Shown one piece after another: positions 23,506 through 61,903 of a DNA stretch of 64,000 nt (its first letter is position 1; each line of letters starts with the position of its first letter). Made by a program: the position numbers and the translations under genes. The notes beneath the pieces were generated by a model. The model was given only the letters and a program-made list of their open reading frames with translations. It made no database searches and was not told where the DNA came from. The DNA is taken from the NCBI GenBank assembly GCA_027186245.1, contig CP114481.1:55312569-55376568 (forward strand). The letters run 5' to 3'. The DNA comes from Coriaria nepalensis. Lineage: Eukaryota; Streptophyta; Magnoliopsida; Cucurbitales; Coriariaceae.

Positions 23506-23872
23506 TTAGGACGGTGGGCCATATGGACCGTAATTGCCATTCCAACCGCCATCCCAAGGGCTAGCATGAGATCCAGTCATTTGACGCACATGAATTCCTC
23601 TAAGGACTCCATTCTTCTTCTTCTTCATCTCAATATCCTTCCTATCTGCAAATTCAAGGGACAAGACAATGAATATGAACATACATACAAGAATTTAAGC
23701 TCTGCAATAATTTACTAAGTTGGAAGAACATGTGCTTACGTGGGTGGAGAGAGTGATGGTGAGGAATATCAGCCTCCACGAACTTATGTGTTGCCACGTT
23801 GGAAAACACGAGAAGCATAACAACTAGGACAACATCCCAAGTGAAGATAACTGTGTTCCTCTTTGAAGCCAT
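23506..23872 (-). CDS. Small secreted peptide precursor SP1 (90 aa)
   Basis: Two exons, 23872-23740 and 23645-23506, joined after phase 1 (C|AT), 90 residues, stop TAA 23508-23506. A signal peptide (MASKRNTVIFTWDVVL followed by a hydrophobic core) is followed by a His-rich stretch, a basic stretch RKDIEMKKKK and a C terminus SPWDGGWNGNYGPYGPPS rich in Gly, Pro and aromatic residues. The product is predicted to be exported, and the layout (signal peptide, variable spacer, short conserved C terminus) is that of peptide-hormone precursors. It is a close paralogue of SP2, 570 bases away in the same direction, and shares the P-W-x-G-G box with the SP6/SP7 genes near the receptor kinases. No named family was recognised. 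Confidence 0.72.
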
Positions 23873-24440
23873 TAATGCATGAAGCGATGTTGTAAAGAAC
23901 TCGTTGAGGGTCTTGCATATTATATATTGCCCAAATATTAATTAGTCAAAGCACGTGATTTGATTTTCAACGCAATTTGAACGAGTCATTAGTACAATGA
24001 AAATCATAGAGGATAAAGTCATTCTATGGTGATAAAGTAGTTAATTGGACTAAGAATTTCCATAGAGGAGGAGGTTAGTTTTCAAAGCATACAGCTAAGT
24101 ACAGTTAATGAACATGTTGCATGACAGAAACATCATCCTTAGCTAGTTTACTACGTACGTCTCAATATTTTTTTGGAAACCGACACCAAACAGCCCGACC
24201 TGCCCTTCCGTGCACTCCTAATTGTTAATGGTATTCATATTTTTGCCCATTGTAAAAGCACTCCAGTATATTTACATAACTTTCAAAGTTTCTATAGGAT
24301 TCACATTTTTATTTGTTTTTGGGAGCCAAAGTTACAATATCAACTTCAGTACAGAAAATACAGAGGAGAAACTAATGAAAGTGAAGGCAGAGACAAGCAG
24401 AAACATCCTCGGACGGAGCAGCTGTTCGGAATTGATTACT

Positions 24441-24766
24441 TTAGGGTTCATAACCATAATTTCCACCATGAGGGGCGTCTGCAAAAAGCCTATTTCCACC
24501 TATAAACACAGGCTCAGCTCTTCCAATCTTCTTCCTCATTTCAATATCCTTCCTATCTGCAATTTCAGCCAAAAACAGAGGAGAAAAATGAACAAAATAC
24601 AAACTTGGCCTTGCGCTGCAGTTCAAACTAAGAAAATGCGATTACATAGCCGGTAAGGAATAGCAGCTTCAACGAGGTTGTGAGTTGTAACATGGGAAAG
24701 CATGACAAGTATAGCAATTATAAAAATCTCCAAAAACAAGATCATTGAGTCCCTCTTAGAAGCCAT
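24441..24766 (-). CDS. Small secreted peptide precursor SP2 (78 aa)
   Basis: Two exons, 24766-24646 and 24556-24441, phase-1 junction (T|AT), 78 residues, stop TAA. It starts MASKRDSMILFLEIF with a hydrophobic signal core and has the same RKDIEM block at the start of exon 2 as SP1. The C terminus ends DAPHGGNYGYEP, matching the P-[WYH]-x-G-[GN]-[YW] box of the other peptide genes in this window. SP1 and SP2 keep the same intron position and phase, so they are a tandem duplicate pair. Function is unknown; secretion and processing are inferred. Confidence 0.7.
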
Positions 24767-26876: not shown

Positions 26877-28545
26877 TCATCGATGAGCAGCGCCATGAAT
26901 TATATTTCCGACCAGAAACTTGGCCTCCTTGAGCAGTTCAATGCTATACTTCAACCTCAAACGCCTTAACAGCAAGTGCAGGCGATTCATCGAGCATACT
27001 CTCAAGTCCTCCACCTTCCACAACATCACCCACAATCTTCTCCTCCATCCTCCTCAGAAGCTTCTGAACACCCAACTGCAAGTACAGAACAGTGGAATCA
27101 ATCAATCTCTTCAAAACAATCTTCCAGTAAGCTACCATCCTCATCTTTAAATCAAATGCCTGTTCCAAAACAGTCCTATGATAATTCCGCAGATCACAAA
27201 CCTCAACTTTACGAACCTATCTATTTTCACGTGAGATGGCTCCTTCCCTTCCTTCCCTTCCTTCAACACTTCATTCATAAACCATGTTTGTTTCTCCATC
27301 AACCTGTTCCATTCTGAAACGTATTCGGGATGACACGTGTAATCTGTCATCCTCTCCATCTCCACATCTCCTCCATCCACATTACAGATTCCAGTTTCAA
27401 ACTCTCCACGAGATTTTCTCCCGCACTTTTTATCGCCATATGAAGCTGGTAGTAATTCTCCGAATGGCGTCTTAAAACCGTAACCACAACATTTGACAAG
27501 TAATCCCATACCTTCTCTACAAATTCAATGGGAAAGATGGGAAATACTCTTCACTTTCCTATTCAATATCATATGAAAAGTGGACCTAGGAATGAAATTA
27601 GGGAGTCCTATCCCTATTGACTCTTCCATAGCCATGATCTTCTCCTTCAAAAAATTGCTTCTATGATAATCATATCTATCACCATGGTCGAAAAGTTCAT
27701 TAGCATAATGACCTACCATTTTGGCCAAACGAGCTGTGCAAATGTAGGGATGAACAAAAAAATTCGAATTTGATCCGATCCGATCAAATCGGCCGGATCG
27801 GAAAATGGATGTGAAAAAATTGATCAGATCAAGCAATCCGAGAATAATCTTGGACATCCGCATTGGATGGAATTGGATCGGATCAGATTATTCGAAAAAA
27901 ACGGATGATTATTTCACAATTTTTCGTATCAGATATATGAAATTTTTATCGGATCGAAAGGATCAGATACAGGGGTAGAAATTTTTATCAGATCGGGTAT
28001 CCGAACTGATCTATTTCATAGGACATTCGATCGGATTAGATCCAATGCTCATCCCTAGTGCAATGCATCTTCTCGTCTTTTTCATACTCATTTATAAACT
28101 CCCCTCTAACAACAATCTGCATTAGAGTGTCCTTTGCCTGTCCGATCACATTCATAAAACTAGTCATGGCTTCAGCAATAGAAGACAACTTCTTAGGCAT
28201 TCTATTTAGCTCCAAAACATTATAAGCCAGCTTGGCTTTAATCTGCTTCACTATGTCCAGCAAGCATCGAGAGATAATCGCAGCTTGAATCTCGACCAAC
28301 TTTTGACATAAATTTGGAATACCAATAATAGATTTATCAATCTTAGACAAAAGAGGATGTCCATTGAAAAGCTCAAGTTCTGCTTTTCTGCTTCGTCGCA
28401 CCTCTCATTCCCTACTCTATTCCTTACACACACATAACCAAGCCCTATATTGACATCATCAGCAAGAACCTTCTCTTGCAGACACTCTACCGCCACGTCA
28501 ACTTTTGTCACGACAGCTAATGTTCTTCTCCCTAAAATTCTTAGA
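26877..28545 (-). pseudogene. Dynamin-related (DRP4C-like) pseudogene
   Basis: Minus-strand remnants read in order as the back half of a DRP4-type dynamin: VVTK followed by a conserved LADDVNIGLGYVCVRNR (about 28520-28400), HPLLSKIDKSIIGIP and VLELNRMPKKL (28390-28070), GIGLPNFIPRSTFHMIL (about 27620-27560), MTDYTCHPEYVSEW (about 27350), and the GED-like AYWKIVLKRLIDSTVLYLQL ending at a TGA at 26879-26877. The N-terminal GTPase P-loop region is absent. At least three or four frame changes separate the blocks, and a 313-bp hAT-like MITE interrupts the gene at 27745-28057. DRP4 proteins are Mx-like dynamins without a clear role in plants. This copy cannot make a full protein. Confidence 0.85.
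27745..28057. mobile_element. hAT-type MITE inserted in the DRP4-like pseudogene
   Basis: 313 bp with terminal inverted repeats TAGGGATGAACA at the left and TGCTCATCCCTA at the right (11 of 12 matching when inverted). It is flanked by an imperfect direct repeat, GTGCAAATG at 27736-27744 and GTGCAATG at 28058-28065, consistent with an 8-bp hAT target duplication. The interior is rich in GGATCGGATC-like repeats. Removing it rejoins the dynamin codons at MHCT/ARLAK. No transposase is encoded. Confidence 0.85.
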
Positions 28546-28855
28546 GCTCGGCCGGCTCACATAGCTCACCCCCTTAACATGTCATGTAATCCTTAGATTA
28601 GTAAGCATGCATGCATCCAGGACAGCTGTGTCTCAAATCATTTCTTACCTTTTTATATTTTTTTTATAACTTTTTTATCTCTTCACCTTCTTGAACTTTC
28701 AAGTTGACGGTTTTGTATTACTGTATATAGGCCGAAAGGCCCTTCAATCTAGTACATGTTTGATTGGGCCCATATAAGGTAGGGTGGGCCGAAACAGTCT
28801 GAATTAATCTAAACACATACAATGATTATCGTGCATCAACCTTGGGAACTACATA
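28546..28855. other. Intergenic: 3' flank of the first MIK2-like gene
   Basis: No gene seen; probably includes the 3' UTR of the receptor kinase on the minus strand. Confidence 0.5.
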
Positions 28856-31846
28856 CTAAAAGAAAGTCTTAGAATCATGTTCCTCAATCCTCATTTGAAG
28901 CAACTGCGACACATTCTTCATTGTCGGCCGGGATTGTGGATGAGTGTTGAGGCACGAAATGGTTACATTCAGTATCAAACTCAATTCTTTCATAATATTT
29001 CCTTCATCAAAATGGTAAGAGAGACGTGGATCTAAGATATCCTCCAAGCGAATCCCATCATGATCATTATCAGCCGAAGAATTCGTCAAACTCAAAATGA
29101 ACTCTCCTGGATGCTTTCCCATTAGGATTTCAAGCACCAAAACACCGAAGCTATAAACGTCGCATTTTTCAGTCACGACCATCGTGTATGCAAGCTCTAC
29201 AATGACATAATAATAAAAAGATAATTAAATTAACTAGCATGTCAAATAATGTATACCAAGCAGATCAATCTGAATAAGAAAATTATAATTAGAATCAAGC
29301 GTACCTGGAGCAATATATCCATGAGTCCCGGCAACTGTTGTCCAATTCATTGAATCGGGCTTCAAAAACCTTGACGTCCCGAAATCTGCAAGATGAGCTT
29401 CGAATTCGGAATCTAATAACACATTCCCACTTGATATGTCTCTGTGGATAATCGAAGGAACGCAATCATGATGTAGATAAGATAAGGCATGCGCTACACC
29501 TTTTACAACTTGAACTCTCCTTGGCCAATCTAAGTCCTTCACTCCCCTTTCACTGCTTAGTATATGAGCTAAGCTTCCTCTCTCTATAAAATCATGCACC
29601 AAAAATATGTGCGCTCCTTGAGAGCAAAAGCCATAAAGCTTGACTATGTTCCGGTGCCTGATTTCAGTTAGAGCCGCCACTTCATCTCGGAAAATTTTCA
29701 AATTCCCCTTCCCCATTTCATCACTGGTGTCGGAATTCAACTTCTTTACTGCAAATACTTGACCCCCTGATATTTCACATCGGTAGACTTTTCCCGATCC
29801 ACCTACTCCTATGCAATACATTTCATCGAAATTTTTCGTGGCTCTAATTATGTCTCCATACACAACCTTTCCGTTGAAGTACCATATAGAAAACGGGTTT
29901 ACTTTTTCCGTTAACCTTTCATCATCGACCCCTCCTTTCGATTTCCTTCTTAAGAAAAATGTCATAACAAGTATGATTGAGAGTAGTAAAAGGCCGCCAA
30001 GAATAGAACAAAAAATAATAATTATAAGTTTCTTGTTGTCATTTTTCTCACTCTTTTGGGTCATATTAACAAAACAAGGCTGCAAGCTTGTGATGTTTCC
30101 ACATAAATCTTGGTTGTTGCTAAATGAACTGGGTGCGGCAAATCGAAATATGCCGCCCCTGGGAAGAGGACCTTCTAGATCGTTGTACGATAAATTAATG
30201 GTCACCAAGCTCAACATGTCCCCCAAGGAATGCGGGATTGAACCGGAGAGCTTATTGTGAGACAGATTCAAGTTCTCTAAAGTAGTCAGCTTCCCAAATT
30301 GGGCCGGAATCGCTCCAGAAAGCGAGTTATAACTCAAATCTAGTAAATCTTGTAAAGCCCCAAGATTACTAATCTCATATGGCATTGTCCCGTTTAAGTG
30401 GTTATTGCTCAAACACAAATTTTGCAGCTTCGAGCAATCACCAACTTGAGACGGAATAGATCCCGTAAACTTGTTCATGGAAAGGTCTAGAGAAACCAGA
30501 TTGGAAAGGCTTCCAATTCCTTCAGGTACTGGCCCGGAAAGAGAGTTGTTTTTTAGGTTAAGAGACATTAAGCTCGATAAATTCTCTATACTTTTCGGTA
30601 ACTCACCCGAGATATTGTTGGAAGAGAGATCAAGGTCTACTAGCTGTTTCAACTGAGTAATCTCATTTGGAATTTGACCATTCACCATATTTCCAGCAAT
30701 TCCTAGAAGTGTCAAGTTCTTACACTCTCCCCACTTGGATGAAAACTCACCTTTCAATTGATTGTAGCTCAAGTCCATGTAATTCAAGCTTGGATAAACC
30801 CCAAAATCTTGGTCAAGAGATCCAGTCAGTTTGTTGTATTCGAGCCGGACCCGGTACAAGGATTTACAGTTCTTTAAGCTTGTTGGGATTGGCCCCGAAA
30901 AGTTGTTATAAGCTGCGCTGAAATTGACAAGCTTTCCAGTTCTACATATTTGAGGCGGTAATTCACCAACGAAGTTGTTTTGAGCAAGATGAAGAACAGT
31001 CAATGATGAATGATTGCCTAAATCTTGAGGAACTGTTCCGGAAAATTGATTAATGAACAAACGCAAATCTGTCAACTTGGTCAAACGAGCAAGATTCCCC
31101 GGAATATTTCCGGAAAAATGATTCTCGTTGAGACGAAGAACGGTTAAGTTAGTGAGATTTCCGAAGGATTGAGGAATAGGACCGGAAAATTGGCTTCTAT
31201 CAAGAGCTAGAAGACTCAAGGATTTCAAGTTTCCTATCTCCTCTGGCAATTTTCCAACAAGTTTAGTATCTTGGAGAAGTAGATTCCTAAGACTCCTTAA
31301 TCCGATTTTGGATTCCCCTGTTCCGTCTGGGAATAACCGAGAATCTAACATTCCAGTAATGTTATTACGCGACACATCAAGTTCATAAACTTGAGTGAGA
31401 TTAGCCAAAGAAAGTGGAAGTTGACTACTAAAAAAATTTGTAGAAAGATCAAGATATTGAAGATTCGAAAGAAGACCAATGGAGGTTGGAATAGAGCCGG
31501 AGAGATTGTTTAGTTTGAGATCAAGACGAAGAAGGTTAGGGAAGGATGCGAAATCCAAGTTTTCGATGGTACCTTTTAGGCCGGTGTAAGCAAAGTTGAT
31601 TGAAATCACATTGCTTTGATTGTTGCAAGTTATGCCTTTCCATTGGCACGGGGTTGTAGAAGGAGTGGAGTTTGAGTTCTGTGTGATGACCCAGGTGTCT
31701 AAGAGGGATTGTTGAGGGAGACTTCGCTTCCATTTGAGTAGAGCTTGAGCATCTTGGATTGAGCTTTCTGCGATTCTGCAAAAATGGGTTATGAAGATGA
31801 TGAAGTGTATAAGTGTGAGGGAAATGGGTTTGTCTTGGCTTGCCAT
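28856..31846 (-). CDS. MIK2-like LRR receptor kinase, copy A
   Basis: Two exons, 31846-29305 and 29196-28856, joined G|AG (the Glu after YIAP), 960 residues. Signal peptide at about 1-27, an N-cap with [10 protein letters not shown], about 20 LRRs including a non-LRR insertion around [14 protein letters not shown], a transmembrane helix at about 607-634, then a kinase with glycine loop [12 protein letters not shown] (about 679-690), AVKKL, HRD in [10 protein letters not shown] (about 797-805) and DFGTSRF; it ends soon after the kinase. Closest family is Arabidopsis MIK2/At1g35710 (LRR-XIIb), plasma-membrane receptors; MIK2 perceives SCOOP peptides and affects immunity and pollen-tube guidance. 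The intron position is as in PXY. Copy B at 50.2-53.2 kb is a paralogue. Peptide genes flank it on both sides. Confidence 0.93.
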
Positions 31847-32662
31847 GTTTTTGAGGAGTTGATGTTCAAATCGAAAGATTTATGTAGGGGGAGGTATATC
31901 ACATATAAGTGGATGTGAACTCGCATGCATATATATATATATATATATAAATGTAGGGAAATACGAAATGCATTAATGATTTGAGCGAGTCTCTGAGGCT
32001 AATCTTAACTAGTCTTCCACTTCGAATCATATGAGATTTTCATGAAGCCATAGTCAAGCCGTGTGCAGATACTGGGTCCCATTTAATTTTGTTATTCACG
32101 AAAAGGGCAAAGATTCAAGATCAATTTAATGAAATACATGATCAGGTAATTACAAAGAAGAGTAATTCTTACGTGAGCCTTGGTTTAGGACAACAAATTT
32201 TAAATCAGTTTAATCAAAAAATGGTTATTGGAAGGGAAATAATTAAAATATAAAAAATGCATTTTAGGAGGGGTTTGAATTGGGGTGATATAAGAATATC
32301 TCCTAATTCCTAAACCAAGCTCACGTATAAATAGTTTTTTCTAGGAAAGATATGACTGAGAATGTAACAACAATGGATGAGGAAAGTTTAATGTAATTAA
32401 TCAGAATAGATACTGTTCTAATCGGCTCTCTTCTTCATCTTCTAAGTTCTAATCAGCATGCTAGGACCATATATATCCGTAAAGCCAATGCCATTACTTA
32501 CCATGCAGTCGTTACGGACGAAGACTAATTACAATACTTTAGCTGTCCTAACAAGTTTGTTACAACGCGATTCCTCAAATGAAAGAACCATGCATGAGAA
32601 TAATTAAGGATTAGTATTCTGTAATGACAGAGCAACTATTGTATATATACATATAATGCCGA
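31847..32662. other. Promoter side of MIK2-like copy A with duplicated segments
   Basis: Holds a TA repeat at about 31926-31950. The stretch 31966-32062 closely matches 41482-41605 upstream of peptide gene SP6. Another stretch at about 32380-32600 matches, in inverted orientation, segments near 39200-39420, 47160-47260, 57110-57320 and 63640-63790. No gene seen. Confidence 0.6.
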
Positions 32663-34649: not shown

Positions 34650-34784
34650 ATGGCTCGTAAGAAGGTTTCAATTGGTTTCACTATGCTCTTGATTACTACG
34701 CTACTTTTGATTGCTTTCAACAATATTATGTCTGCAAGGAAGTTGACTGATCAGGTTAATGTGACGTATAAGGTAGGTATATAG
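34650..34784 (+). pseudogene. Peptide gene SP3, exon 1 only
   Basis: Starts MARKKVSIGFTMLLITTLLL with the family signal peptide and the conserved RKLTDQ after the predicted cleavage point. A donor AAG|GTAGGT occurs where the family intron should start, but no exon 2 like those of SP6, SP7, SP9 or SP10 was found before the next duplicated unit. Read through, the frame stops at 34782-34784, giving 44 residues, essentially a signal peptide alone. Probably a truncated duplicate. Confidence 0.6.
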
Positions 34785-37700
34785 TCAAGGATTAGAAAAA
34801 CGTAATAGATTCATTCAGCTAATCATATCTACAACTTAGATAATGCAATAAATTGCTAACACCTTAAAGTCATTGAGTCACTGATCTGACCCCAAATCAA
34901 ACACAATTATTTTTAGACTTCGACTGTGAAGAAGGTGCAAGTAAATTACGGTAGTTTACTAATTTCAAAGTCGATATATCTGCTTGCTTACTTTTAGTTA
35001 TATCTATCAGATTTTAAAGTGAAAATATTTCTTTTTCTAAAATACTTAGTAAATAAAATATAAGAAAATACTGAATCAAAAAGATGAATCATTTTTAAAA
35101 GCACTTCATTCTCTTCTCGATGAAATAGCTCTCTCGGTATAATTATTTAGTTAGAAATCCAAACCTTTTTAATACATTAGAAGTAGGATTCTAGGCGACG
35201 GTGACGATCGTTTGTAAAATTAATAAATGTAGAATATAAGCATTGCATTTGGATCTACGTTACAGATAAAGAGGACCGAAGGTCCCAAAGTCAAACATGT
35301 GCTGTCCTTAATTTCTTCACTACGTTTTTTAGTTGACTTCAAGCTAAAAATGCGAAACCGACGTGAATTTATACAGCAAGTAGGCAAAGACTCCTCATTT
35401 CCCTATTGTTTGGCCACTCGTTACATTCAAAGTAAACGACGACTCTTGGACAAGACTTAATAGTTTGTTTTCATCGTCGCTAACTGCGTACATGCAAATA
35501 AGAAGAATTGGCTACTGGACAGTTGGTGCATTATTGATATGGAGTATAGTGTTATACGTTTTTTTTTGGGTCCTTTAATATAGTGTGTAATCGTGCCATG
35601 TATGGTGATAAGTATTAAAATTCGGAAGTGGATTTAGTCATTATTTACTCTTTTTATGTCTGTCTTTATATATAAATTTCGGTCGTCTTTGTAAATCTAA
35701 TGGTTGAAATATATGTCACGTCATGAGAAAAAAAAAATTGCAAGTCAACTAAAATACGGTTAATTTATGAGCCGTAATTGACAATTTATCTCTCTCATTT
35801 TCGTAACCGTTGCGACTCCCCTTTCTTTCTTTTTCTCTAAATGTTGACAAATAATGATAACCATTTACACCTGATATGAATATGAAATATAGAGATCGAT
35901 ATTCGATCTGAATATCTAAAATCTAAAGACCGATATACGATCTATAAATTTCGGTCTAAAATCTAAAAAATAGGTCGAGTTCCCGGTCCGGATAGAGTTT
36001 TCGGTCTGAATAGAGTTCAAATCGAGTTCACGAGTTCCCAATTCAGAGTTATTGGTCTAGACCAACATGTGATCTCCGAGAACTGTATCATCTTTCTATC
36101 TTTTCTAGAAAACTCTGCCTATACTGAGAATTCAAAGATATTATATTATATTATATATTGGTATCGAAAGGAAGAAAAAATTTTCTGTAATGAAAAATCA
36201 AGAACTTAACCTAGGAAAAAAGAAATTAAACTCAATCTTGAAAAAATAAAAGGGAACAAAAAAAAGATCTCAGGTTAAGAATAAAAAATTAAATTTGATC
36301 TAACAAAAATAAAAAAAATTCATTAAAAAGGAATTTTAATATATTATATAAAAAAAATTCTTAATCCATAAATTATTTTATATATTAATACAAGTAATTT
36401 TACATTTCCGCCTTGCTTCAAAGAACATGACCAAATACCTAAACTGTGGGGTACTTTGAGGATCAGAAAAAATCATCCGCCCAAATGTGGTTTGAGTATC
36501 AAGTAGGATGTTAAGGCAGGACTAAAAATTCCTGAACCAAGTCAATGCGGAAGAATGTCTCCTAGGACTAACCAATTGACGATGACATAATGACTATATA
36601 TGACATGCATATAGTGCTCTATACTCGATTATATGAAATTTAAGAGCATATAGTCTCATGTATGTATGTCGGGTCCCATCTAGCTTAAAAGTCAAGGCCA
36701 TTAATTTTACCATCAACATCAGCAGTTCCTTCCAGCTGGCTGGACCAAAGGATACTTTAGCTGTGTCCCTAACAAGATATTTACACCACGACCCAAATTA
36801 TTACCCAAATGTAATAAATGTAATGTTGATATTAGCTTATGGAATTTTGCTGACTATATCAAAAGTTGATGCGACTGATCACGTACGTGCTTAGACTTTC
36901 GCTGCGAAAACAATGACTTATGTGGTCATCTTGAGTTATTCATTTTTCTACGTAGCCTGATGTTTAGGAGAAATTCTTAGATCAGTCCAATTAAGATGCA
37001 TCAGAGCGTTTTTGATATTTAAATTAAGATGTAAGGAGTTGGTGACGGTGACCACAAACTATAACTTGTCAAAGACTCGTTTTCTTTGATTTTGGAACTA
37101 ATTAAGGAGTGGCCAAACAATGGCGAAAAGAGAAATCTTTGCCTACTTGCTGCTGTATAAATTCAAGACAGAGTGGGGAATGATGCTAAACTGAAGAAAG
37201 GGACGCCTGTAAATTACCATCTTGATAAGTTTCTAAGAATGGAAGCAACTTTAGAATTTTACTTTGATGGTGTAAGCAAGATGCACTAGAATCTTTTTCT
37301 CATAGTTCTCTGCATAGGGGCATCAATAACTCTTACATAAGAAAACTTTGTTTCCTCCGTGAATAATGACAATATTATATTTTATATAAGAAATATTTGA
37401 AAAATTAATATATATACAAAAGATTAGTTTATTTCTCTATTTGTCAATTAATTTTTAGATAAAAATATAAGACTCTTAATATTATATTATAGAATTAGGT
37501 CAAAATTGAATTAACTATCACACGTGTATTATATATTTATATAAAAAAATTTATATTTACGCTCAAAATAACACTATATTGAAAATGCATATTGAGAATA
37601 TTATATTATATATAAAAAATATAACACTTAGAAAATTAATATACATAAAAGATCGGTCAATTTTTCTTATTACTAGTTGATTTTGAGATACCAACCAAAA

Positions 37701-38746: not shown

Positions 38747-38917
38747 CTAGCTAGCTAGATAAAATCTTAAGAAAATCAATGTAATATTAGACTTGCGGTA
38801 ATTCTGAGACTTAGCCTCAGTCAACTTCCTTCCAGACACAACATTATTGAAAACAATCAAAAACAGCGTAGCAATCAAGAGCATAGTGAAACCAATTGAA
38901 ACGTTGTTACGAGCCAT
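38747..38917 (-). pseudogene. Peptide gene SP4, truncated at the exon 2 acceptor
   Basis: Starts MARNNVSIGFTMLLIATLFL, then RKLTEAKSQNYR. At the usual splice point the family GTAAGT is GCAAGT, a change to a possible GC donor. Intron sequence homologous to SP7 continues to about 38635 (TTTTGTTATAATGAA) and then diverges exactly where exon 2 should begin, so exon 2 is missing. Read through, the frame gives 56 residues. The upstream TATA-like box (38975-38982) is intact. Confidence 0.6.
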
Positions 38918-48062: not shown

Positions 48063-48799
48063 TTTACTCTATCCTAGTTTACTTGCTAAAATATCATATA
48101 TATATATATACATATATGTATGGGAAAAATCATAGGTGATCTACAATAGTCTGAATCTACTAAGAATTCTTCGAATTAGAAAAATGCCCTACTCACAATG
48201 ACCACATAAGTCATTGTTTTCGCAACCAAAGTCTACGCACGTACATGATCACATCAACTTTTGTTATAGTCAGCCAATCTAACCCCTAAGCTACATAGCT
48301 ACCTACATTTACCAAAAAAAAAAAAAGAAAAAACCAAAAAAACAAAGAAGAAGATGGAAAACCATCATTATTCACATTGGTTTAAGTTTTAATATCCAAA
48401 CCCACCAAATTAATTAGCAATTAAGTAAAGTTTATCTCCCGAAACTACAAAGATAACAAATTAATGGAAAATTCATAAATAATTGATTTAAGTAGCAGCC
48501 AAGGCTCAAGATTATAATACACACAAACACATGGAGCACTGGAGATGATAAGATTCCACCCTAATTACATAAGGTTATATCTAGTCAATTTATCAACTCT
48601 TCCATTTGGCTAAATGGCTACACCCATTATATTATACATATACACTACACAAAGTACAAACAAGCAAACAGTATATATCTTAACCAACCATGTACCACAT
48701 AGCTTAGCTAGAGACCATATATATAAGGGAAATATATAGCAAAAAATTATACGGCAGTAGTAGTACTGATCATCAGACGGCTGGAATTCTTATATGCAT
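48063..48799. other. SP7 upstream region
   Basis: TA-rich core just upstream of SP7, then the duplicated module at 48194-48285. The rest is AT-rich 3' flank of the SP8 pseudogene. No gene seen. Confidence 0.5.
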
Positions 48800-49134
48800 T
48801 TACTTGGGATGGTTCCGACATCTGTGAATCGTACAGTAATTAACGTTATGTGGTTTATCTCCTGATCCTTTAGGCGGAGGTCCTAGACGTCCTTTACCGC
48901 GCATCACTCATGATGTTCAAAGTCTTCTTATGATCATTAGGAACACTCTTCGTTATAACAAAATCAAGAAGTAAGTACAAATTACTATCACTACTTAATT
49001 ATGATCTCTATGCTTTACATACATATATATATAGCCTTTAATTACATAAATAATCAAGCCTCTATCGCTAGCTAGCTGAAAACATGAGCGTAGCAATCAA
49101 GAGCGAAGTGAAACCAATTGAAAGCTTCTTACAT
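48800..49134 (-). pseudogene. Peptide pseudogene SP8
   Basis: Exon 1 remnant at about 49134-49080: a 5-base deletion right after the ATG turns the second codon into TAA, and the exon breaks off in the signal-peptide core after LIATL. Exon 2 remnant at about 48960-48800: SVPNDHKKTLNIM, then a stop, and further on GDKPHNVNYCTIHRC and HPK-stop, which align with the Cys-containing tails of SP9 and SP10. So this copy belonged to the long subtype. Confidence 0.75.
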
Positions 49135-50190
49135 TTCAATCTCTCGCGACTCTAGCTATATACATATATAATGAATTAGATACTCTTAATTGATTTCATA
49201 TATTCAGTATGTAATTAATTTTCCACATCGACAGAAAACAATAATTATTAGATCGACTGGAGAAATTACAAAAGTAGAGTATTGATGTCTGACGATGGAT
49301 TTTGGATCATTTGAGACAAGTTTATAAATTTTATGTGAGAGAGAGCAATGAATTTAGTGTGTTAGTCTCACTTCATCTTCTTTCATATAAGACATATAAA
49401 ACCGTCTCATAAGATAATTTCTCCCGACAATGACGGTCTGAACAAGTCTTTGTCGCAACCAAGTTCTACGAACGCACATAATCGCTCCCATCAACTTTTG
49501 TTACATTCAGCACTCTGCAAAATCTAATCCCCAAGACATAAAATTTAATTTAAAAGGAAAAAAAACACTTTGTCTTCTTAATTTCCTTTTATCTAAAGTC
49601 AGTTTGGGCCCTTAATTTTGAGTTAGATTCATACAAATATAATTACAATTCATTGTTCAAAATGTCGGCTAAATCAATTGAATTAAATTGAGCAATAGAG
49701 TACTGAATTAAATTTATTCGGAAAGGATAAATTGAACATTAAAAACAAAACAAAACAAAACGTCCTTTGATCATGAGAAAGAGAGAAATGGTAACAGATA
49801 AGAAAAGGCCCTCACGTTTTTGCCAAAGAAAGGGAAAACTACGACCCGAGCCGCTCAAATGAGCCATTTACATATGCCGCCACGTGGTTCATTCTAAGTG
49901 CAATAATCAGTATAGTTCCCATCCAGACCATCGATCCCGATTCATACAGCCGGAACCGAATCGAAACTCAGGATTGTCTGATTGACTTAAAGAAACAAAG
50001 ATATGTTAAATTTTAACCTTCATAGATTTGACAAACCATAGAAATGAGAGAACGTTGTTGTTTGAATAAGAGTTTAATCAAATTCAGCTTAGTCACCTCA
50101 ACTAAATACATCACTTTCATTAATTAATCTCACACATACAGTTAATTACTCTCGTGCATTAATACATGGAACTAGATGCTAAGAGAAAGT
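49135..50190. other. Intergenic: SP8 upstream module and 3' flank of MIK2-like copy B
   Basis: 49440-49510 is a diverged inverted copy of the peptide-gene upstream module. Otherwise AT-rich, with no gene seen. Confidence 0.5.
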
Positions 50191-53100
50191 TTAAGAATCA
50201 TGTTCATCAATCCCCTTCTGAAGCAACTGCGACACATTCTTCATTGTCGGTCGAGATTGCGGACGAGTATTAAGACACGAGATAGTTAGGTTCATTATCA
50301 AACTTAATTCCCTCATAAGATTTGCTTTGTCAAAAGGATAAGAAAGACATGGATCTAAGATATCCTCCAAGCGAATCCCTTCGTGATCATCATCAGCAGA
50401 AGAATTCATCAACCTCAAAATGAAATCTCTTGGATGCTTTCCAATTATGATTTCAAGCACCAATACACCAAAGCTATAAACGTCGCATTTCTCGGTCGCC
50501 ACCATTGTATATGCAAGCTCTATAATAACATAATATAATGATCAATTGTTTAACTTTCTAGTACCTTAGAAAAGAATAGTTAAACTAAGATGTCCAATAA
50601 TCCATATCAAGCATATCGATTTGAATAAGGAGATAGAAAAAATAGGAATCAAGTGTACCTGGAGCAACGTAGCCAGGAGTCCCAGCAACTGTTGTCCAAT
50701 TCGTCGATTCGGGCTTTAAGAACCTTGCTGTCCCGAAATCTGCAAGATGAGCTTCGAATTTGGAGTCCAATAACACATTCCTACTTGATATGTCTCTATG
50801 AACAATTGAAGGAACGCAATCATGATGTAGATAAGATATGGCATGTGCTACACCTTTTACAACTTGAACTCTCCTTGGCCAATCTAAGTCCTTCACTCCC
50901 TTTTCACTACTTAGCATCTGAGCTAAGCTTCCTCTCTCTATAAAATCATACACCAAAAATGTGTGTGCTCCTTGAGAACAAAACCCGTAAAGCTTCACTA
51001 TGTTCCGGTGCCTGATTTCGGTAAGAGCTGCTACTTCATCTCTGAAAATTTTCAAATTCCCATTGTCCATTTCATCACTAATGCTAGAATTGAGCTTCTT
51101 TACGGCAAATACTTGACCTCCCGACATTTCACATCTGTAGACTTTTCCTGATCCGCCAACTCCTACGCAATACATGTCATTGAAATTTTCCGTGGCTCTA
51201 ATAATGTCTTCATATACAACCTTTCCATCGAAGTGCCAAACCGAAAATGGGTTTTCCTTTTCCTTTATCCTTTCATCTCCAACCCCATCTCTCGATTTCC
51301 TTCTTAAGAAAAATGTCATAGAAAATATGATATAAAGTAGTAAAAAGCCGCCAAGTATAGAACAGACAAGAATTACTATAAGTTTCTTGTTGTCATTTTT
51401 CTCACCCTTTTGGGCAAGACAAGGCTGCAAGCCTGTGATGTTTCCACATAAATCTTGGTTGTTGCTAAATGACCCGGGCAGGGCCGATTGAAATATGCTG
51501 CGACTCGGAAGAGGACCTTCTAGATCGTTGTACGATAAATTGATTGTCAACAAGCACCACATGTCCCCCAAGGAATCCGGAATTGAACTGGAGAGATTGT
51601 TGTGAGAGAGATTCAAGTTCTCTAAACTCCTAAGCTTCCCAAATTGGGCCGGAATCGCTCCAGAAAGCGAGTTATAACTCAAATCTAGTAAATCTTGCAA
51701 AGCCTCAAGATTACTAATCTCATATGGCATTGTCCCGTTTAAGTGGTTATTGCTTAAACACAAATTTCGCAGCTTCGAGCAATCACCAACTTGATAAGGA
51801 ATAGATCCCATAAACTTGTTCATGGAAAGGTCTAGAGAAACCAGATTGGAAAGGCTTCCAATTCCTTCAGGTACTGGCCCGGAAAGAGAGTTGTTTTTAA
51901 GGTTAAGAGACATTAAGCTCGATAAATTCTCTATACTTTTCGGTAACTCACCCGAGATATTGTTGGAAGAGAGATCAAGGTCTACTAGTTGTTTCAACTG
52001 AGTAATCTCATTTGGAATTTGACCATTCACCATATTTCCAGCAATTCCTAGAAGTGTCAAGTTCTTACACTCCCCCCACTTGGATGAAAACTCACCTTTC
52101 AATTGATTGTAGCTCAAGTCCATGTAATTCAAGCTTGGATAAACCCCAAAATCTTGGTCAAGAGATCCAGTTAGTTTGTTGTATTCGAGCCGGACCCGGT
52201 ACAAGGATCTACAGTTCTTTAAGCTTGTTGGGATTGGCCCTGAAAAGTTGTTATAAGCTGCACTGAAATTGACAAGCTTTCCAGTTCTACATATTTGAGG
52301 CGGTAATTCACCAATGAAGTTGTTTTGAGCAAGATGAAGAACAGTCAATGATGAATGATTGCCTAAATCTTGAGGAACTGTTCCGGAAAATTGATTAATG
52401 AACAAACGCAAATCTGTCAACTTGGTCAACCGAGAAAGATTCTCCGGAATATTCCCAGAAAAGTGATTATCGTTGAGACGAAGAACGGCTAAGTTAGTGA
52501 GGTTTCCGAAAGACTGAGGAATAGGACCGGAAAATTGGTTTGTATCAAGAGCTAGAAGACTCAAGAATTTCAAGTTTCCCATCTCCTCCGGCAATTTTCC
52601 AACAAGTTTAGTTTTTTGGAGAAGTAGATTCCTAAGACTCCTTAATCCGCTTTTGGATTCCCCCATTCTGTCAGGGAATAACCGAGGATCTAACGTTCCA
52701 GTAATGTTATTACGCGACACATCAAGTTCATAAACTTGAGTGAGATTAGCCAAAGAAAGTGGAAGTTGACTACTAACAGAATTTGAAGAAAGATCAAGAT
52801 ATTGAAGATTAGAAAGAAGACCAATGGAGGTTGGAATGGAACCTGAGAGATTGTTTTGTTTGAGATCGAGACGAAGAAGTTTAGGGAAAGAAGCGAAATC
52901 CAAGTTTTCAAGGGTACCTTTTAAGCCAGTGTAAGCAAAGTTGATTGAAATCACACTGCTTTGATTATTGCAAGTTATGCCTTTCCATTGACATGGAGTT
53001 GTAGAAGAAGTAGAGTTTGAGTTTTTTGGGACGACCCACGAGTCTAAGAGGGATTGTTGAGGGAGACTTTGCTTCCATTTTAGTAGAGCTTGAGTTTCTT

Positions 53101-53191
53101 GGGTTGAGCTTTCTATGAGTTTGCAAAAATGGGTTACGAAGATGATGAAGAGCATAAGTGTGAGGGAAATGGGTTTGTTTTGACCTTCCAT
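50191..53191 (-). CDS. MIK2-like LRR receptor kinase, copy B
   Basis: Two exons, 53191-50659 and 50519-50191, joined G|AG, 953 residues. Same architecture as copy A: signal peptide, [10 protein letters not shown] cap, LRRs with the [14 protein letters not shown] insertion, transmembrane helix ([17 protein letters not shown]), glycine loop [33 protein letters not shown], and a short tail after [14 protein letters not shown]. No key kinase residue is lost. The central LRRs are almost identical to copy A at DNA level while the membrane and kinase regions are clearly more diverged. It lies between peptide genes SP8 and SP9. Role inferred as a cell-surface receptor of the MIK2 clade; the ligand is unknown. 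Confidence 0.93.
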
Positions 53192-56100
53192 TTTTTGTGG
53201 AGTTAATGTTCAAATTGAAAGATTTATATATATAGGGGGAGATAAATGCGTGCATGTGAAGTTATCTAGTAAATGATTACAGAAACGTACGTAATAGATC
53301 CATTCAGCTAATGATATCAAAGAAACACAAAAAAAAATAAAAAAAATAGACATGCAATAATTGCTGACACCTAGCTTGAAGTCTTTGATTCATTGGTCAT
53401 TGACCCAAGTAACATACAACACAAATTTGTGGGTGTAAAGTATATGCATGCAGGGTAGAAAAATCATGCATGGAAACGTTTTTTCCTTCTTTTTTTTTTT
53501 TTTTTTTAATTAGGTTATAAAATGAAGATAAGTTTAATTAGCTCCACATACATATTTAATGTTTTGTGTACTGTTTACTCTGTTGATAACAAAAGGCGGA
53601 GTAAACAGTGATATATATAATGCAATTTGTTTAACCATTTCCTTAACTGGTTCGCATTAATATCATGTTGTTTGGCCGGAAAAAAAAAACATGTTAATTA
53701 GGTTCTTCGATGATCACGTGTTTGAGATTTTGTTGTAATTATTTGATTATATTTTTATTAAATTCGTAAATTGATCCTATAGGAGATTTAGTGATTCGAG
53801 TGCCTTTATACATATATACATATATATATTATACGTGAGATATGTAATCTTTTAATATTTTTAAATTAGATATAATAATAGAAAAATAAATTTAAAATTA
53901 ACTCATTAATAAATTTTAATTTCTATATATATCAAATTTTAATGATAAAAATAGTAACATATTTTTTTTATAAATTTGAATATTTAATAAGAGTTTAAGT
54001 TTAATTTTTTTTTTAAAAATTATAATATGCTTAATGTTTATTAGTCATCATAAATTTCCTTAAACATGTAGCCCCCACTTATCACCATTTCAACATAAAT
54101 GGATGACTAGGATTTTTACTTCCATGCCTATAAAAAGGGTGCCGCGGATCGTACCAACAGCAAAGGGTAAGAGAGGGAAAGGAAGGAAAAAAAAAAAAAA
54201 AGGAAAGAAGGGAAAGGAAAAGAAAAGGAAAGAGGGAAAAGGAAAAGAGAAAGAAAAGGGAAAAAGAAATTAGGAAGTGGGCAGAAGAAAAGGAATTAAA
54301 GGAAGTAAAGGGATCATCAAATTCCGTAAAGTTCATTGTAAGTATAGTTTCATTGTAATACCTACATATTATTTATTTATTGTTATGATTACAATTATAT
54401 TAATTGAGGATAATATTAATTATTAAGCATGATGACTTGATTATGTCTGCATTATGATTATAATTATAACATGCTAAGTAGAAGTGAAATGCTATAATTA
54501 CCATGCTAGAAATAAGGATAATAATTAAAATAAATATAATATAGCATGATGGTTTGAGGATAGTACAAATTTTAAATATATTACGATTAAGTGCATATGT
54601 TCATATTTACAGAAGTTAATATTATGCTAAGATAAATAAGAAGTATAAGCATGCATAACATTAAAGTGAGGTGCTACCGGATCAAAAGAAGAATCGTTTG
54701 TCGATTATAAAGGACCCTAAATGAGGTTAAAAAAATGTCATAAGCGGATTATTACAATGGTCATAAGCGGACCGCTGATTAGATATTGATTGACATGCTG
54801 GTGGCAGCATCCTTAAAGCCCAAGAATGTAGAATGATAGACATTTATGCATGCTAGATATAAGTCATAAAAGTATTAACTCACGATAGTCATAAAAAGAA
54901 TAGTGATGTGAATAGGACTCTATCTTTACTGAGCTTCTAGCTCATAGATGTCTACCCTACGTTGTAGGAAATTACAAAGGTAAGGCGGTAAGCTAAAGAA
55001 TAGGCGAATTGAGGCTATCAATCTGTGAGATTGTACATATGAGACCTGACATCTGTAAGCAATGAGTTTGAAAATTGACACTTCTTATGTATATGTATGT
55101 ATATGTATATTCAAATAAAGAATAAAATATTTAAAAAGTTTTGGGATTATTTTTATATGACAAACTTTTGTAATATTTTTAAATTATTACGTATATCTTT
55201 TAAATTATTTTTAGAAATAAAGTTAATTTTAAGGAACAAAATTTTTATAAAAGTAAGAAAGTGATATGGTACCCAACTAATTAACAGTGAAACCATCTTT
55301 ATCCCTTTCATATCTATTTTAATCTATATATACTTTGCAAAAGCTAGCTAATTACGCTTTAAACCACGTGCTTTATCCCTTTCATTACGCTCATGTAGAA
55401 GACCAAAAAGAAGACTCAGTGTATAAAGCATATATATAAATATGTAGTGTGAAAAGATGGGGTGAGTAATTGCGTTTGCTTTTGAGTCATGACTTTGTTA
55501 TATATATATATATATATATTATCTATACTTTATTAGAATTAACATATAATGATGTATAAATAATGACGTCCGTCTTTGGATACATACCAACTCTCAAGTA
55601 TACTAAGATAATCACACGGCTAAAATCCTAAAGCCAATAGAGAATATCAGCTTTTCTCGCATAAAGAATAGCGAGAGAGCACAAGAAAATGAGCCAAGGC
55701 AAAAGGGTATAACCCTAACCCGAAGTACTCAGCACGGGTAATGAGAGATACACATACGTGTAAACAAAATGGCAACTTAAACCAACGGGTCAAAAACCGG
55801 GTTATAGGCTACTGAATTTGAGTTTCACACATGATCTAACAGTTCTGATGATTATTTTAAGTTTTTTGCTCCAACATTCTTTCATCACATCTCATCTTAT
55901 TATTTCTATTGTCTTGATTTAAAACTCATATCAGAATCAAGTATTATAGCACTATAGATTACATACAATACTTGAGCTAGCCAGATTTTCCAACCATTTA
56001 AATTTGTTTGAATAATTATAATAAAATTATGTTAAATTACACTATAGAAATACTCTTAAACTGAAACTGAAAAATGATTCAAAATTTTAACATAAATAAT

Positions 56101-56446: not shown

Positions 56447-56971
56447 TTACTTCGGAGGCTTCTTACGTCCGGGGTTGCAAGCAGGCCTACGGGAATAGGG
56501 GTTGCAATAATTACCGTCATATGGGTTATCTCCGGTACCGCCGTTATGTCCCCCACCTGCTGGAGATCCATGGCCTTTCAAATGTCGTCCTATACCAAGC
56601 ACCATGACAACTTTAACATCTTTCATGATCTTCAAAGATTTCTTATGATTATCTGGAACACTCTCTTTATGATGATACCAAAATGAAGAAATAACTGTGC
56701 ATTACCATCACTACTAAATTATGTTTATGCTTTACATATAACGTATGTACTGTGTACATAGCCTAGAATTAGATAAACAGTCAAGCGTCGCTAGCCAGCT
56801 AAAAATTAAGGTAATGAATATAATATTAGACTTACGGTAATTCTGAGGCGGCGTCGCATTAGCCTCACTCAGCTTCCTCGCAGACACTACACTATTGAAA
56901 GCAATTAAAAGCTGCGTAGCAATCAAGAGCGTAATCGTAATGAAACCAACTGAAAGCTTCTTACAAGCCAT
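56447..56971 (-). CDS. Small secreted peptide precursor SP9, long subtype (117 aa)
   Basis: Two exons, 56971-56836 and 56664-56447, phase-1 junction (C|AG), 117 residues. Signal peptide MACKKLSVGFITITLLIAT, then ARKLSEAN; exon 2 starts ESVPDNHKKSLKIMKD (the first codon reads Gln when spliced with C) and continues VVMVLGIGRHLKGHGS, a Gly/His-rich stretch, then DNPYDGNYCNPYSRRPACNP and a basic end GRKKPPK. Two Cys in the tail could form a disulfide. The P-Y-x-G-N-Y box corresponds to P-W-x-G-G-Y of SP6/SP7. It has the same length as SP10, 5 kb away. TATA-like box at 57046-57053. Confidence 0.75.
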
Positions 56972-57534: not shown

Positions 57535-59080
57535 TTATTCCCAACCAATTTGATGGCTAGACGAATTCGATCGGAAGCTTGATCAATCAACCATCCACTA
57601 AAGAAGGGGACTGGAGCCCACAAAGTGGGTGAGTGGCGCCTGAAATGGGGGAGTGGGAACTCGAATTCAACTTATTTACAAGGGTGTCATCAACGTATTT
57701 AGTTAGGACGAACCTAAACTTAATAAAGATCACATTCGACTGGAAGTTAGGTTAAATAACTATCTACCTAAAAATGTGGTAGGGCTCACAAAACGGAGAA
57801 AATTGCATAGCAAAATAGGGGAGTGATAGGTCGACTTTGAGTTATTTATGAAGATGCTATCAGCTCGTTTGTTTATATATAAAATACTTTTATGAAGGTA
57901 AAAATCATCACCGATAATCACTAAAAAATCAAGTAACATTCGTAAATACTCTCTAATCAAGTAACATTCGACTGAAAATGAAAGAAAGTGGGGGGAATCA
58001 GTTTCAATGAACCTAGATACAATCTCAATTGAATTCGACCGGAAGCTTGGTCAATCAACCATTCACCAAAGAAGGAGATTGGAGCCCACAAAGTGGGTGA
58101 GTGGCGCCTGAAATGGGGGAGTGGGAACTCAAATTCAACTTATTTACAAGAATGTAGTCAACGCATTTGGTTAGTATGAACCTAGACTTAATAAAGATCA
58201 CATTCGACTATAAGTTATAGGTTAAATAACTATTTACTTAAAATCTAGTAGAGCTCACAAAATGGGGAAAATTGCATAGAAAAATAGGGGAGTGATAGGT
58301 CGACTTTTAGTTATTTATAAAAATACTATCAGTTCGTTTATTTATAAATAAAAAACTTTAATGAAGATAAAAATCATCATCGACATCACTAAAAAAATCA
58401 ACCAAATCAGTACATTTTCTACCCATACGCAAAGATAAAAATCATCATCGATAAAGGGACACGATGCAATTTGGGTAATCGTTGACAGATTAACCAAATC
58501 GGCGCATTTTCTACCCATACGCAGCACATCCTCCCTAGAACAGTTAGCAAAGCTTTATGTGCGTGAAATTGTTCAACTACATGGAGTACCATTGTCAATA
58601 ATTTCATATCGAGATGGTAGGTTTACCTCAAACTTTTGGAAAAGTGTACAGCGAGCAATGAGAACGAGACTAAAATTTAGCACGGCCTTTCACCCACAGA
58701 CAGATGGCCAATCGGAAAAAACCATCCAGACCTTAGAAGATATGCTATGAGCCTGCGTCCTAGACTTTAGAGGTGCTTGGAATCTATACGAACGAAAGTG
58801 CAGGTCACCAGGTCACAAGACTGTCATCAACGCATTTGATTAGGACGAGCTTAGACTTAATAAAAATCACATTCGACTGGAAGTTATAAGTTAAATAACT
58901 ATCTACTTAAAAATATGGTAGGGCTCACAAAATGAAAAAAATTGCATAGAAAAATGGAGGAGTGATAGGTCGACTTTGAGTTATTTATAAAGATATTATC
59001 AATTCGTTTGTTTATAAATAAAAGACTTTAATAAAGATAAAAATTATCGCTAACTATCACTAAAAAATCAAGTAAGATAT
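57535..59080. repeat. Tandem repeat of ~400-480 bp units around a gypsy fragment
   Basis: Units at about 57540-57960, 58020-58400 and (partial) 58800-59080 share long stretches such as GGAGCCCACAAAGTGGGTGA, GATCACATTCGACT and GGGGAGTGATAGGTCGACTT. The integrase fragment sits between units two and three. A 30-base stretch (ACCAAATC, then CATTTTCTACCCATACGCA) is duplicated at 58403 and 58492, so repeat formation involved the retroelement sequence. Confidence 0.75.
58457..58792 (+). pseudogene. Ty3/gypsy integrase core fragment
   Basis: Open frame with AIWVIVDRLTKSAHFLP, VREIVQLHGVPLSIIS, RDGRFTSNFWKSVQ and FHPQTDGQSEKTIQ, the integrase core of Ty3/gypsy retrotransposons. The usual SDRD motif reads SYRD, so the second catalytic Asp appears lost, and an in-frame TGA at 58748-58750 stops the frame before ACVLDFRGAWNLY. 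No reverse transcriptase, gag or LTR was found attached. A dead fragment. Confidence 0.85.
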
Positions 59081-61392
59081 ACTTTATTTTTTTCATTATC
59101 AAATTAGTTAATATTTAATGTTTGCTTTATTTTTTTCATTATCCAGAACAATAAGTAAAATGTAAAAGAAAAAAAAGAGGGCACGGTGTCTAAGGCATAT
59201 CGAAATTCTTGTATGATGTGAAAAGTTGGGATGAGTCAGTACGTTTGCTTTTGAGTCATGACTCCATTATAGATAATATCTATACTTTAGTGGAATTAAA
59301 TTAACATAAAGTAATTTATAAATAATGACGTTCGTGGATATATATATCATATGATATATTATATAATAAAAATTAAATTTAGTCACGGATATATTTTATA
59401 GTATTTTACTGTTCAAAATTTTAAAATATTATTATTTTATATTTTATAATAATTTTTTTAAATACCATCATTCACCATAAATTTAAATTCTTAATTAAAT
59501 TTTATTATTATTTTTATTTTTATAATTTTATAATTTTTATTTGATAAGATTATATATATATATAATCTTATGTAAAAAAATTTGAATTTAAAAATTAATG
59601 ATACACCAAATATTACATTAATAAAAAATAAAATAATTATATATGTTATTTTATTATCTTATCATAATTTTTATTTTGATAATCACGAAAATCTTATCAT
59701 AATTTTTATTTGATACAATTATAATCTTATGTAAATATGAATTTGAATTTAAAAATCCATAATAAACACAAATTATTACTTTAATGAAAAAATAATAATC
59801 ATTTACATTGATTTTTTCTCTCGTTTTTATTAGTAAAGAAAGAAAAAAAAATTCATCCACAAATAAGTAACCGCCTTCTCATCTCACTCCTTGCTTTCGC
59901 GTCCTATATATATTTTGATTTCACATTTCGACTTTCCATCATTTTATAATTTCTTCATACTTTGAATATTATTACTTTCTAATATAGTAGAAAGTTAAAA
60001 TTATAATTGTGTCGGTAATTTTCATGATCAAAATGAAAGTTAATATTAGGATTACAAAATTTTTAGATATTCTTAACCTCAAAATAAATAATGAGTTTAT
60101 TAGTCTCGATATGATTATATTTGACTATGAAATGTATTTACTTAATTAATGGTCTCTCTATATTTTTTTAAAATTTTATTTATAGGGTATCATATTTATG
60201 CTCCAGTTCATGATTAAACGTCTAGTTAACTCAAATATATATGATAATTGATACTTGATATATGTATTATATGTTTTTTTTTTCTTTCTTTTTTTTTAAT
60301 ATTTCAAAAAGTAAAGTAAATTTATTCATAAGTATACGAACTGGTATTTGATCCGATATCACTCGAATGTACATAAATCAATACTAAAATTCACTAGAGA
60401 AAATTTGAAAAATATCTTCATTAATGCAAAAATTGTCATCAAAGCACTCTTAAAACAACATATTTAAAGTAAACCTCTCAAAAGAAATCCTAACCCTACA
60501 TAAATTTGAGTTCATGATTCTATTTAAATTAAATTAAATTACTAAAATACTCTTAAACGGATAAAAAAATACTTTTTTTTTTTTTGCCAAAATACTTAAA
60601 AAATTCATGAAACAGTGGAATATTGACCCTAAAACAGAGGGCAAGTGTCGTCATCAAAATTGTAAGAAAACTGAAACATGTTTCTAAATTTGCTCGCTCG
60701 CTTATTGACGACACACTCAAGCTTAAAATGCGTTTTGCACACCCATTTTAATTTTCGTTTCATGAATTTTTCCCACTAATTGTTCCGATCAGACAGACAT
60801 AGGATTGATTGATTGATACGTCTTTCCTAATTTTCTGATTCAAAGTTGAAACAATGCCATGATGATGCTATAAGTGCTTAGTGATAATAGCATAAAGAGC
60901 CACAAGAAAATAGTGATCCAAATACTTTTTTCCTTTCTCTGATTGGGAAGGAAAATAAATAATAAAGTGTAAGTAAAGCTTTATGCTTCTTTATCTCTAT
61001 AAATTATTATCGTGCATATTCTGTATGATATAACTTATTCGTGACTCGATTTTAACACTTATTTTATCTTAAGTGTAGTTATCATTTGAGTTAAAAAAAG
61101 ACTTTAATTGATTTATTTCTCCAAACTAAATGTTTATGCTAAAGTCAAACAAAGTCGTCAATAAATGATCATTAAAATACACAAAAACAGATTGAGTGGA
61201 GATGATATGTTTCCCCCCCATAACTACTAGTATGTATATATAACGTTATAGAGTCAATTTATTCCACCATATATATATTAATCAAACATGCATGCACATA
61301 GCTTAACTACAGAGATCATATCAGGGAAATAGCACAAATTATACGGCAGTAGTAGGTTCTGAACATTAGATGGTAAGAATACGTATATGCTT
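59081..61392. other. Intergenic with left copy of a segmental duplication
   Basis: 59155-60535 is the left copy of the duplication (see repeat entry). 60540-61390 is AT-rich with no gene; 61120-61390 is the 3' flank of SP10 and resembles that of SP9. Confidence 0.55.
59155..60535. repeat. Segmental duplication, left copy
   Basis: Matches 62310-63570 in the same orientation over its length: GAGGGCAC and CATATCGAAATTCTT near the start, a long AT-rich core, then TAATATTTCAAAAAGTAAA, ATCTTCATTAATGCAAAAATT and CTCAAAAGAAATCCTAA near the end. The start is also related to 55410-55580. Confidence 0.75.
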
Positions 61393-61903
61393 TTACATGG
61401 GAGGCCTCTTAGGTACTCTGTGCCCGGAACCCCCACAGGAATAACGGTTGCAGTAATTACCGCCATGTGGTTTATCACCTTCCCTAACGTCGTTATGTCC
61501 CCAATCCGCTCGAGATTCATGGCCATTTAAATGTCGCCCATTACCACGCAACATAACAACCGCAACATCCTTCATGATGATCTTCAATACCTTGTTAGGA
61601 TCATCTGAAATACTCTCTTCATTATAACAAAACCAAGAAGTTTTTAAATTACTATCTGTAATGATCATGAATGTGATCAAGATTGAAGACGAAGATTGGA
61701 AGAAAAAAGAGAGAGAGAGAGTCGCGTGAAAGCTAGGTAAAAATTAAGGAAATCAGTATGATAGTAGACTTACGGTAATTCTGAGTCGTCGCGTTAACCT
61801 GATCACTCAGCTTCCTCGTAGACAGAATATCACTGAAAGCAATTAAAAATAGCGAAGCAATCAAGAACGTAGTGAAACCAATTGAAAGCTTCTTCCACGC
61901 CAT
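61393..61903 (-). CDS. Small secreted peptide precursor SP10, long subtype (117 aa)
   Basis: Two exons, 61903-61774 and 61616-61393, phase-1 junction (C|AG), 117 residues. Signal peptide MAWKKLSIGFTTFLIASLFL, then TRKLSDQVNA; exon 2 carries SISDDPNKVLKIIMKDVAVV, then RGNGRHLNGHESRADWGHN, and the tail GDKPHGGNYCNRYSCGGSGH ending VPKRPPM. The tail holds two Cys and the P-H-x-G-N-Y box. Same length as SP9 with clearly different residues, so the two have diverged under retained reading frames. TATA-like box at 61951-61958. Confidence 0.75.

Follow-up and report, generated by a model that had tools for sequence, protein, structure and literature searches.

MIK2-like receptor kinase genes and small secreted-peptide candidates share a locus in Coriaria nepalensis: a tentative ligand–receptor module

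The window analyzed here is a 64,000-nucleotide stretch of the Coriaria nepalensis genome (GenBank assembly GCA_027186245.1, contig CP114481.1, positions 55,312,569 to 55,376,568 of the forward strand), and all coordinates below are positions within it. Two MIK2-like leucine-rich repeat (LRR) receptor kinase genes, R1 and R2, lie there inside an array of small two-exon genes encoding candidate secreted peptides (Table 1). Ten peptide gene copies were counted, comprising six intact genes for proteins of 78–117 amino acids, three exon-1 relics and one pseudogene, and both receptor frames are open from end to end. Counts and coordinates given for the two gene types in the original prediction were thereby confirmed. 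Its description of the two as alternating was generous: the receptors do lie inside the peptide array, but the order is A1 and A2, R1, five copies (the three relics, B41 and B48) plus the broken one, R2, and then B56 and B61.

R1 and R2 share 86.6% identity. Scanning of the exon-1 reading frames revealed LRR and kinase Pfam domains in both, the kinase Lys, HRD and DFG motifs were found by eye, and a structural model of the exon-1 part of R1 contains an N-terminal helix and a transmembrane helix. Judged from sequence and model, the features expected of a functional LRR receptor kinase (signal peptide, LRRs, transmembrane segment and kinase motifs) are present, and activity is predicted. The model, built on an alignment of 10 rows, is confident over most of residues 31–590 and not over the kinase part; its predicted strands give ~20 LRRs. 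Arabidopsis MIK2 (AtMIK2) is both the nearest solved sequence and the top-ranked fold for R1, although the fold ranking is uninformative about ligand. Synonymous differences between R1 and R2 number 18.5 in codons 121–480 versus 60.5 in codons 661–960 (Fisher p ~1e-9, with synonymous sites approximated), and gene conversion that homogenized the ectodomains is the likely cause of the low divergence in codons 121–480. The repeat shared by the receptor genes is limited to 28802–31899 and 50122–53247 and contains no peptide gene copy; copying of receptor and peptide genes as one unit was rejected.

Among 7,968 scored proteins, 7,883 plant relatives of the receptors were found at E ≤ 0.001. From the best 120 of these, 47 were hand-picked across families for a quick tree of 50 rows, in which AtMIK2, represented by its ectodomain only and flagged as a long branch, served as the outgroup. 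R1 and R2 fall in a clade of ~950-amino-acid receptors from rosids and asterids (44 rows, Shimodaira–Hasegawa-like approximate likelihood ratio test 100%), with Cucurbitaceae as the sister group and AtMIK2 outside. The clade occurs in at least legumes, Fagaceae, poplar, Citrus, cucurbits and tea. No Brassicales or Corylus names were seen by eye among the best 120 of the 7,883 relatives, where several rows were nameless and names were shortened, so this is no test of absence. By this placement R1 and R2 are not MIK2 orthologs and belong to a separate clade. Of the MIK2/SCOOP framing from which the analysis started, the linked receptor and peptide array is present, but the receptor clade is not that of the SCOOP receptor. 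A 'MIK2-like' label outside Brassicales, including at proposed self-incompatibility (S-) loci, need not mean SCOOP perception, and no ligand for the ~950-amino-acid clade was found in the literature searched.

All six intact peptide genes have a phase-1 intron with GT..AG borders, the splice sites being predicted by hand. Each precursor begins with an N-terminal hydrophobic segment resembling a signal peptide on inspection (without a signal-peptide predictor); of the earlier claim that the proteins bear signal peptides, the hydrophobic start stands and the signal peptide itself is a prediction by eye. A1 and A2 form a divergent subfamily ~4 kb from R1. Profile comparison of the A and B proteins returned a probability of 92%, over only the first ~36 residues, and the copies are plainly homologous beyond chance. 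None of the six peptides matched a Pfam family above cutoff, and a structural lookup of B56, the one peptide searched, gave no useful PDB match.

Table 1. Receptor kinase genes and peptide gene copies of the C. nepalensis locus (window positions).
Feature	Position	Strand	Details
A1, intact secreted-peptide gene, 90 amino acids	23506–23872	-	exon 1 23740–23872, exon 2 23506–23645; tail SPWDGGWNGNYGPYGPPS, without D-x-P core
A2, intact secreted-peptide gene, 78 amino acids	24441–24766	-	exon 1 24646–24766, exon 2 24441–24556
A2 core DAPHGGNY	24456–24479	-	4 residues before C terminus; 6/8 to GmPep914/890
R1, MIK2-like LRR receptor kinase, 960 amino acids	28856–31846	-	exon 1 29305–31846, exon 2 28856–29196, intron 108 nt
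Exon-1 relic, peptide family	34650–34784	+	tblastn: exon 2 not found
Exon-1 relic, peptide family	38795–38917	-	tblastn: exon 2 not found
Exon-1 relic, peptide family	40092–40205	+	tblastn: exon 2 not found
B41, intact, 87 amino acids	41820–42223	+	exon 1 41820–41946, exon 2 42087–42223; core DTPWDGGY 42167–42190 (4/8)
B48, intact, 88 amino acids	47635–48062	-	exon 1 47933–48062, exon 2 47635–47771; core DRPWGGGY 47662–47685 (5/8)
Broken peptide copy	~48815–49139	-	lacks a start and has stops and frame breaks; GDKPHNVNYC readable in one remnant frame
R2, MIK2-like LRR receptor kinase, 953 amino acids	50191–53191	-	exon 1 50659–53191, exon 2 50191–50519, intron 139 nt
B56, intact, 117 amino acids	56447–56971	-	exon 1 56836–56971, exon 2 56447–56664; core DNPYDGNY 56507–56530 (5/8)
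B61, intact, 117 amino acids	61393–61903	-	exon 1 61774–61903, exon 2 61393–61616; core DKPHGGNY 61453–61476 (6/8)

A D-x-P-x-x-G-x-Y core is located near the C terminus of five of the six intact precursors (A2 and all four B proteins), A1 being without it. This core resembles two soybean defense peptides reportedly described by Yamaguchi in 2011, GmPep914 and GmPep890, members of a family marked by alkalinization of the cell medium at nanomolar doses and by induction of defense genes. Their sequences are DHPRGGNY and DLPRGGNY, respectively (PMC7730307), and the shared C-terminal D-x-P-x-G-G-N-Y core is matched at six of eight positions in A2 and B61. Residues 31 to the end of each precursor were shuffled 20,000 times and scored against the GmPep914/890 core. 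The observed score was reached by 3 shuffles for A2 and 9 for B61 (6/8 each), by 176 for B48 and 316 for B56 (5/8 each), and by 1,667 for B41 and 2,715 for A1 (4/8 each), with A1 not significant; the B genes are paralogs, so their results are non-independent. The likeness had been spotted before testing, and the comparison is therefore post hoc. This is softened by a panel of 15 peptides (the sequences of 13 being possibly imperfect), in which no peptide besides GmPep914/890 matched repeatedly and four isolated values of 0.0175–0.042 occurred among the other 78 tests. The Arg of the GmPep core is kept in none of the six precursors, those with the core having His, Trp or Tyr instead. A CAPE-like resemblance (GNY...PY) was not significant and was rejected. 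The peptides had been suggested to be a different, undescribed ligand family; they are indeed not SCOOP-like, but their motif has a precedent in soybean.

Conservation on the receptor side was counted in 42 relatives, comparing two exposed positions per concave strand with convex and loop offsets, all figures being from the R1/R2 clade alone. In repeats 1–11, the frequency of the commonest concave residue averages 0.85, and both R1 and R2 keep it at 22/22 positions, compared to a mean of 0.70 at convex and loop positions, where R1 keeps 34/55 and R2 35/55. The corresponding values for repeats 12–19 are 0.79, with 13/16 kept in each receptor, and 0.61, with 21/40 kept in R1 and 22/40 in R2. Standout concave residues are H286 (40/44), R334 (36/44), R238 (35/44) and R262 (33/44). 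Conservation of this face is compatible with a conserved ligand and is no proof of one.

We tentatively propose, with less than even confidence, that the locus is a defense-type phytocytokine module, in which a self-made defense or stress signal and its receptor are encoded side by side. What is observed is that small precursors with signal-like starts, products of one duplicated gene family, surround two near-identical, intact LRR kinases. We infer from this arrangement that the core peptides may pair with R1 and R2 as ligands. Precursors would be exported by the secretory route and cut by extracellular proteases, possibly of the subtilase type, into a short peptide around the core. The peptide would bind in the concave groove of R1 and R2, where a ridge of R238, R262, H286 and R334 would be a fitting partner for a free C terminus or for the conserved Asp. 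Like MIK2, R1 and R2 would then recruit a SERK co-receptor, and their RD kinase would trigger reactive oxygen species, calcium and medium-alkalinization responses. Varying residues in and around the core may tune the paralogs, and homogenization of the R1 and R2 ectodomains would leave both receptors reading the same ligands. A 2026 review (PMC13157962) calls the receptor of GmPep914/890 'as yet unidentified'. It is conceivable, though we consider it unlikely, that GmPep914/890-type peptides find their missing receptors in R1, R2 and the ~950-amino-acid eudicot clade; the peptide class would then be older and wider than soybean and have secreted, receptor-linked precursors in Cucurbitales. Should the peptides and receptors work as a pair, a signal and a receptor group that are both orphans could be matched. 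Their physical linkage in one genome offers a cheap direct test for both the ligand and the receptor sides.

Several observations weigh against the proposed module. The concave face is better kept along all repeats instead of being confined to repeats 1–11, and part of this conservation is LRR consensus. Homologous precursors were not found in two protein searches, the same approach having given thousands of relatives for the receptor. Because such a search starts from 5-residue words in common and scores proteins over their whole length, it could overlook a family whose conservation is limited to an 8-residue core; the result nevertheless counts against a widely conserved precursor. The precursor architecture also differs from that of GmPep914/890. 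GmPROPEPs are described in passages of PMC4621407 and PMC6547358 as 52 amino acids long, without an obvious signal sequence and with the peptide at the extreme C terminus, whereas the precursors in the window have 78–117 amino acids, a signal-like start and 4–19 residues past the core, and for these reasons were not assigned to the soybean family. The window peptides look GmPep914-like and are not filed as family members, the likeness resting on mature peptide sequences and the separation of precursors on published descriptions. GmPep914/890 reportedly gave Arabidopsis no protection from a fungus (PMC7225342).

Comparison of exon, intron and flank likeness in seven paralog pairs adds a further difficulty. 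In all seven pairs, exon 1 is more similar than either the 5′ flank or the intron. Exon 2 surpasses the 3′ flank in similarity in 6/7, with B48–B61 level (62.9% versus 63.3%). Relative to the intron, however, exon 2 is the less similar in five of the seven pairs, and the comparison does not demonstrate constraint on that exon. Whole-gene ratios of nonsynonymous to synonymous substitution rates (dN/dS) were 0.49–0.91 in all seven pairs; exon-1 dN/dS exceeded 1 in one pair, B56–B61, a value resting on four synonymous differences. The peptide genes thus appear to be under weak constraint and to change fast, above all in exon 2, and both a diversifying ligand and relaxed constraint fit.

Chance interleaving is as likely an explanation as the linked phytocytokine module. 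Two tandem families would have expanded in a duplication-prone stretch, the peptides being real signals, perhaps GmPep914-like, for an unlinked receptor and R1 and R2 seeing another ligand; we give this, too, a little better than one chance in three. Copies of the peptide gene are scattered, some are inverted and some have decayed, the interval holds minisatellites and other repeats, and the receptor repeat excludes the peptides, so that the two were not copied together. The placement of both receptors within a single peptide array, each flanked on either side by peptide copies, is at least suggestive, and there is a working precedent for clusters of this kind. In poplar, small orphan proteins, RISP among them, are encoded between the clustered genes for LRR receptor-like proteins (PMC3975113), and later poplar and willow work on working receptor/peptide clusters is cited in PMC13157962. 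As far as these descriptions allow comparison, the poplar cluster likewise mixes orphan genes for small secreted proteins with LRR receptor genes. It differs in that its receptor-like proteins have no kinase, kinases being present here, and in the four cysteines of RISP.

The small proteins could instead be antimicrobial or glycine-rich structural secreted proteins and no receptor ligands at all, which seems doubtful. B56 matched a glycine-rich protein family below cutoff (E 0.00058, 20.9 bits versus a cutoff of 30), A1 did so more weakly (E 0.078), and exon 2 is poorly conserved. Cysteines after residue 30, two each, occur in B56 and B61, but the other four precursors have none. The family also shows a short conserved core amid a varying tail, a layout common among processed signals. 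In favor of an antimicrobial role, poplar RISP, whose gene lies close to that of a receptor, combines antifungal and elicitor activity (PMC4756128).

A self-incompatibility locus, with the receptors as the stigma part and the peptides as the pollen part, is improbable. MIK2-like candidates have been reported at mapped hazelnut S-loci (PMC8921776 and PMC11152071) and at the chicory S-locus (PMC10272723). The hazelnut region resembles this locus in its tandem MIK2-like kinases, two of which, at 937 and 950 amino acids among copies of 328–1,296, are of R1/R2 size; the chicory candidate has 1,038 amino acids. The hazelnut PIX7-like kinase has no counterpart in the window, where tblastn with R1 and R2 found only one other kinase (5870–9231), and the hazelnut passages, with which comparison was by description, name no peptide partner. 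The near-identity of R1 and R2 and their clade-typical concave residues are unlike an allele-rich recognition face, and a single haplotype was seen.

A SCOOP–MIK2 system outside Brassicales can practically be dismissed. MIK2 is the nearest solved relative, and the peptides, like SCOOPs, come from clustered, fast-changing small secreted precursors. SCOOPs and MIK2 are, however, reported to be exclusive to Brassicales in PMC11331138, which also names the MIK2 residues that form the SxS-binding pocket. These residues (D246/N268/S292/H294/H316) correspond to Q/A/R/N/R in R1 (0/5 kept; MAFFT, two alignments) or, in an alternative phmmer LRR register, to D/R/R/F/H (2/5 kept). R1 and R2 have ~20 repeats versus 24 in MIK2. 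Reading the six translations by eye, we found the SCOOP SxS (or SxT) motif only in B61 (SIS, residues 45–47), at a place taken by SxP in its three B paralogs; the earlier statement that no obvious SCOOP S-x-S motif exists was right in that the motif is not conserved in the family, and overlooked this one copy. Motif, clade position and pocket residues together led us to reject SCOOP membership, and make a SCOOP-receptor role for R1 and R2 very unlikely.

Several repeats and gene fragments accompany the array. Between the A peptides and R1 are a FolD-like gene, recognized by eye, and a relic of a dynamin central region (28039–28404, minus strand, Pfam E 2.7e-16). Dense tandem and palindromic minisatellites with units of ~28–152 bases occupy 43828–45666 in the middle of the cluster. 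Direct repeats of 1.3–1.4 kb, 70% identical, lie at 59125–60522 and 62282–63567, with shorter repeats at 57563–59078; an integrase-like frame at 58439–58747 was recognized on inspection alone, without a Pfam match. An 80–88% repeat stands just upstream of B41 (41628–41737) and B48 (48177–48311) and alone at 36815–36950, where it may mark the promoter of a copy since lost. Two short repeats upstream of R1 recur near peptide genes: 31979–32067 matches 41509–41594 upstream of B41 (86.5% over 89 columns), and 32346–32603 matches 39171–39439 upstream of the 38.9-kb relic (69.5% over 279). Relative to the genes, the R1 stretches are oriented opposite to those of B41 and the relic, and they may be mobile elements or shared promoter pieces.

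A tRNA scan of the window with the bacterial code gave nothing. Searches of prokaryote and viral collections for plant loci as contaminants returned 26 bacterial loci in one case and nothing in two others. In window positions 1–22000, Pfam identified RFT1-like exons, an LRR kinase (5666–9399; TDR/PXY-like by eye) and an F-box gene (10227–11423); SMC6-like exons were recognized by eye, without Pfam confirmation. This gene order suggests conserved synteny with Arabidopsis, where PXY and MIM (SMC6B) are neighbors.

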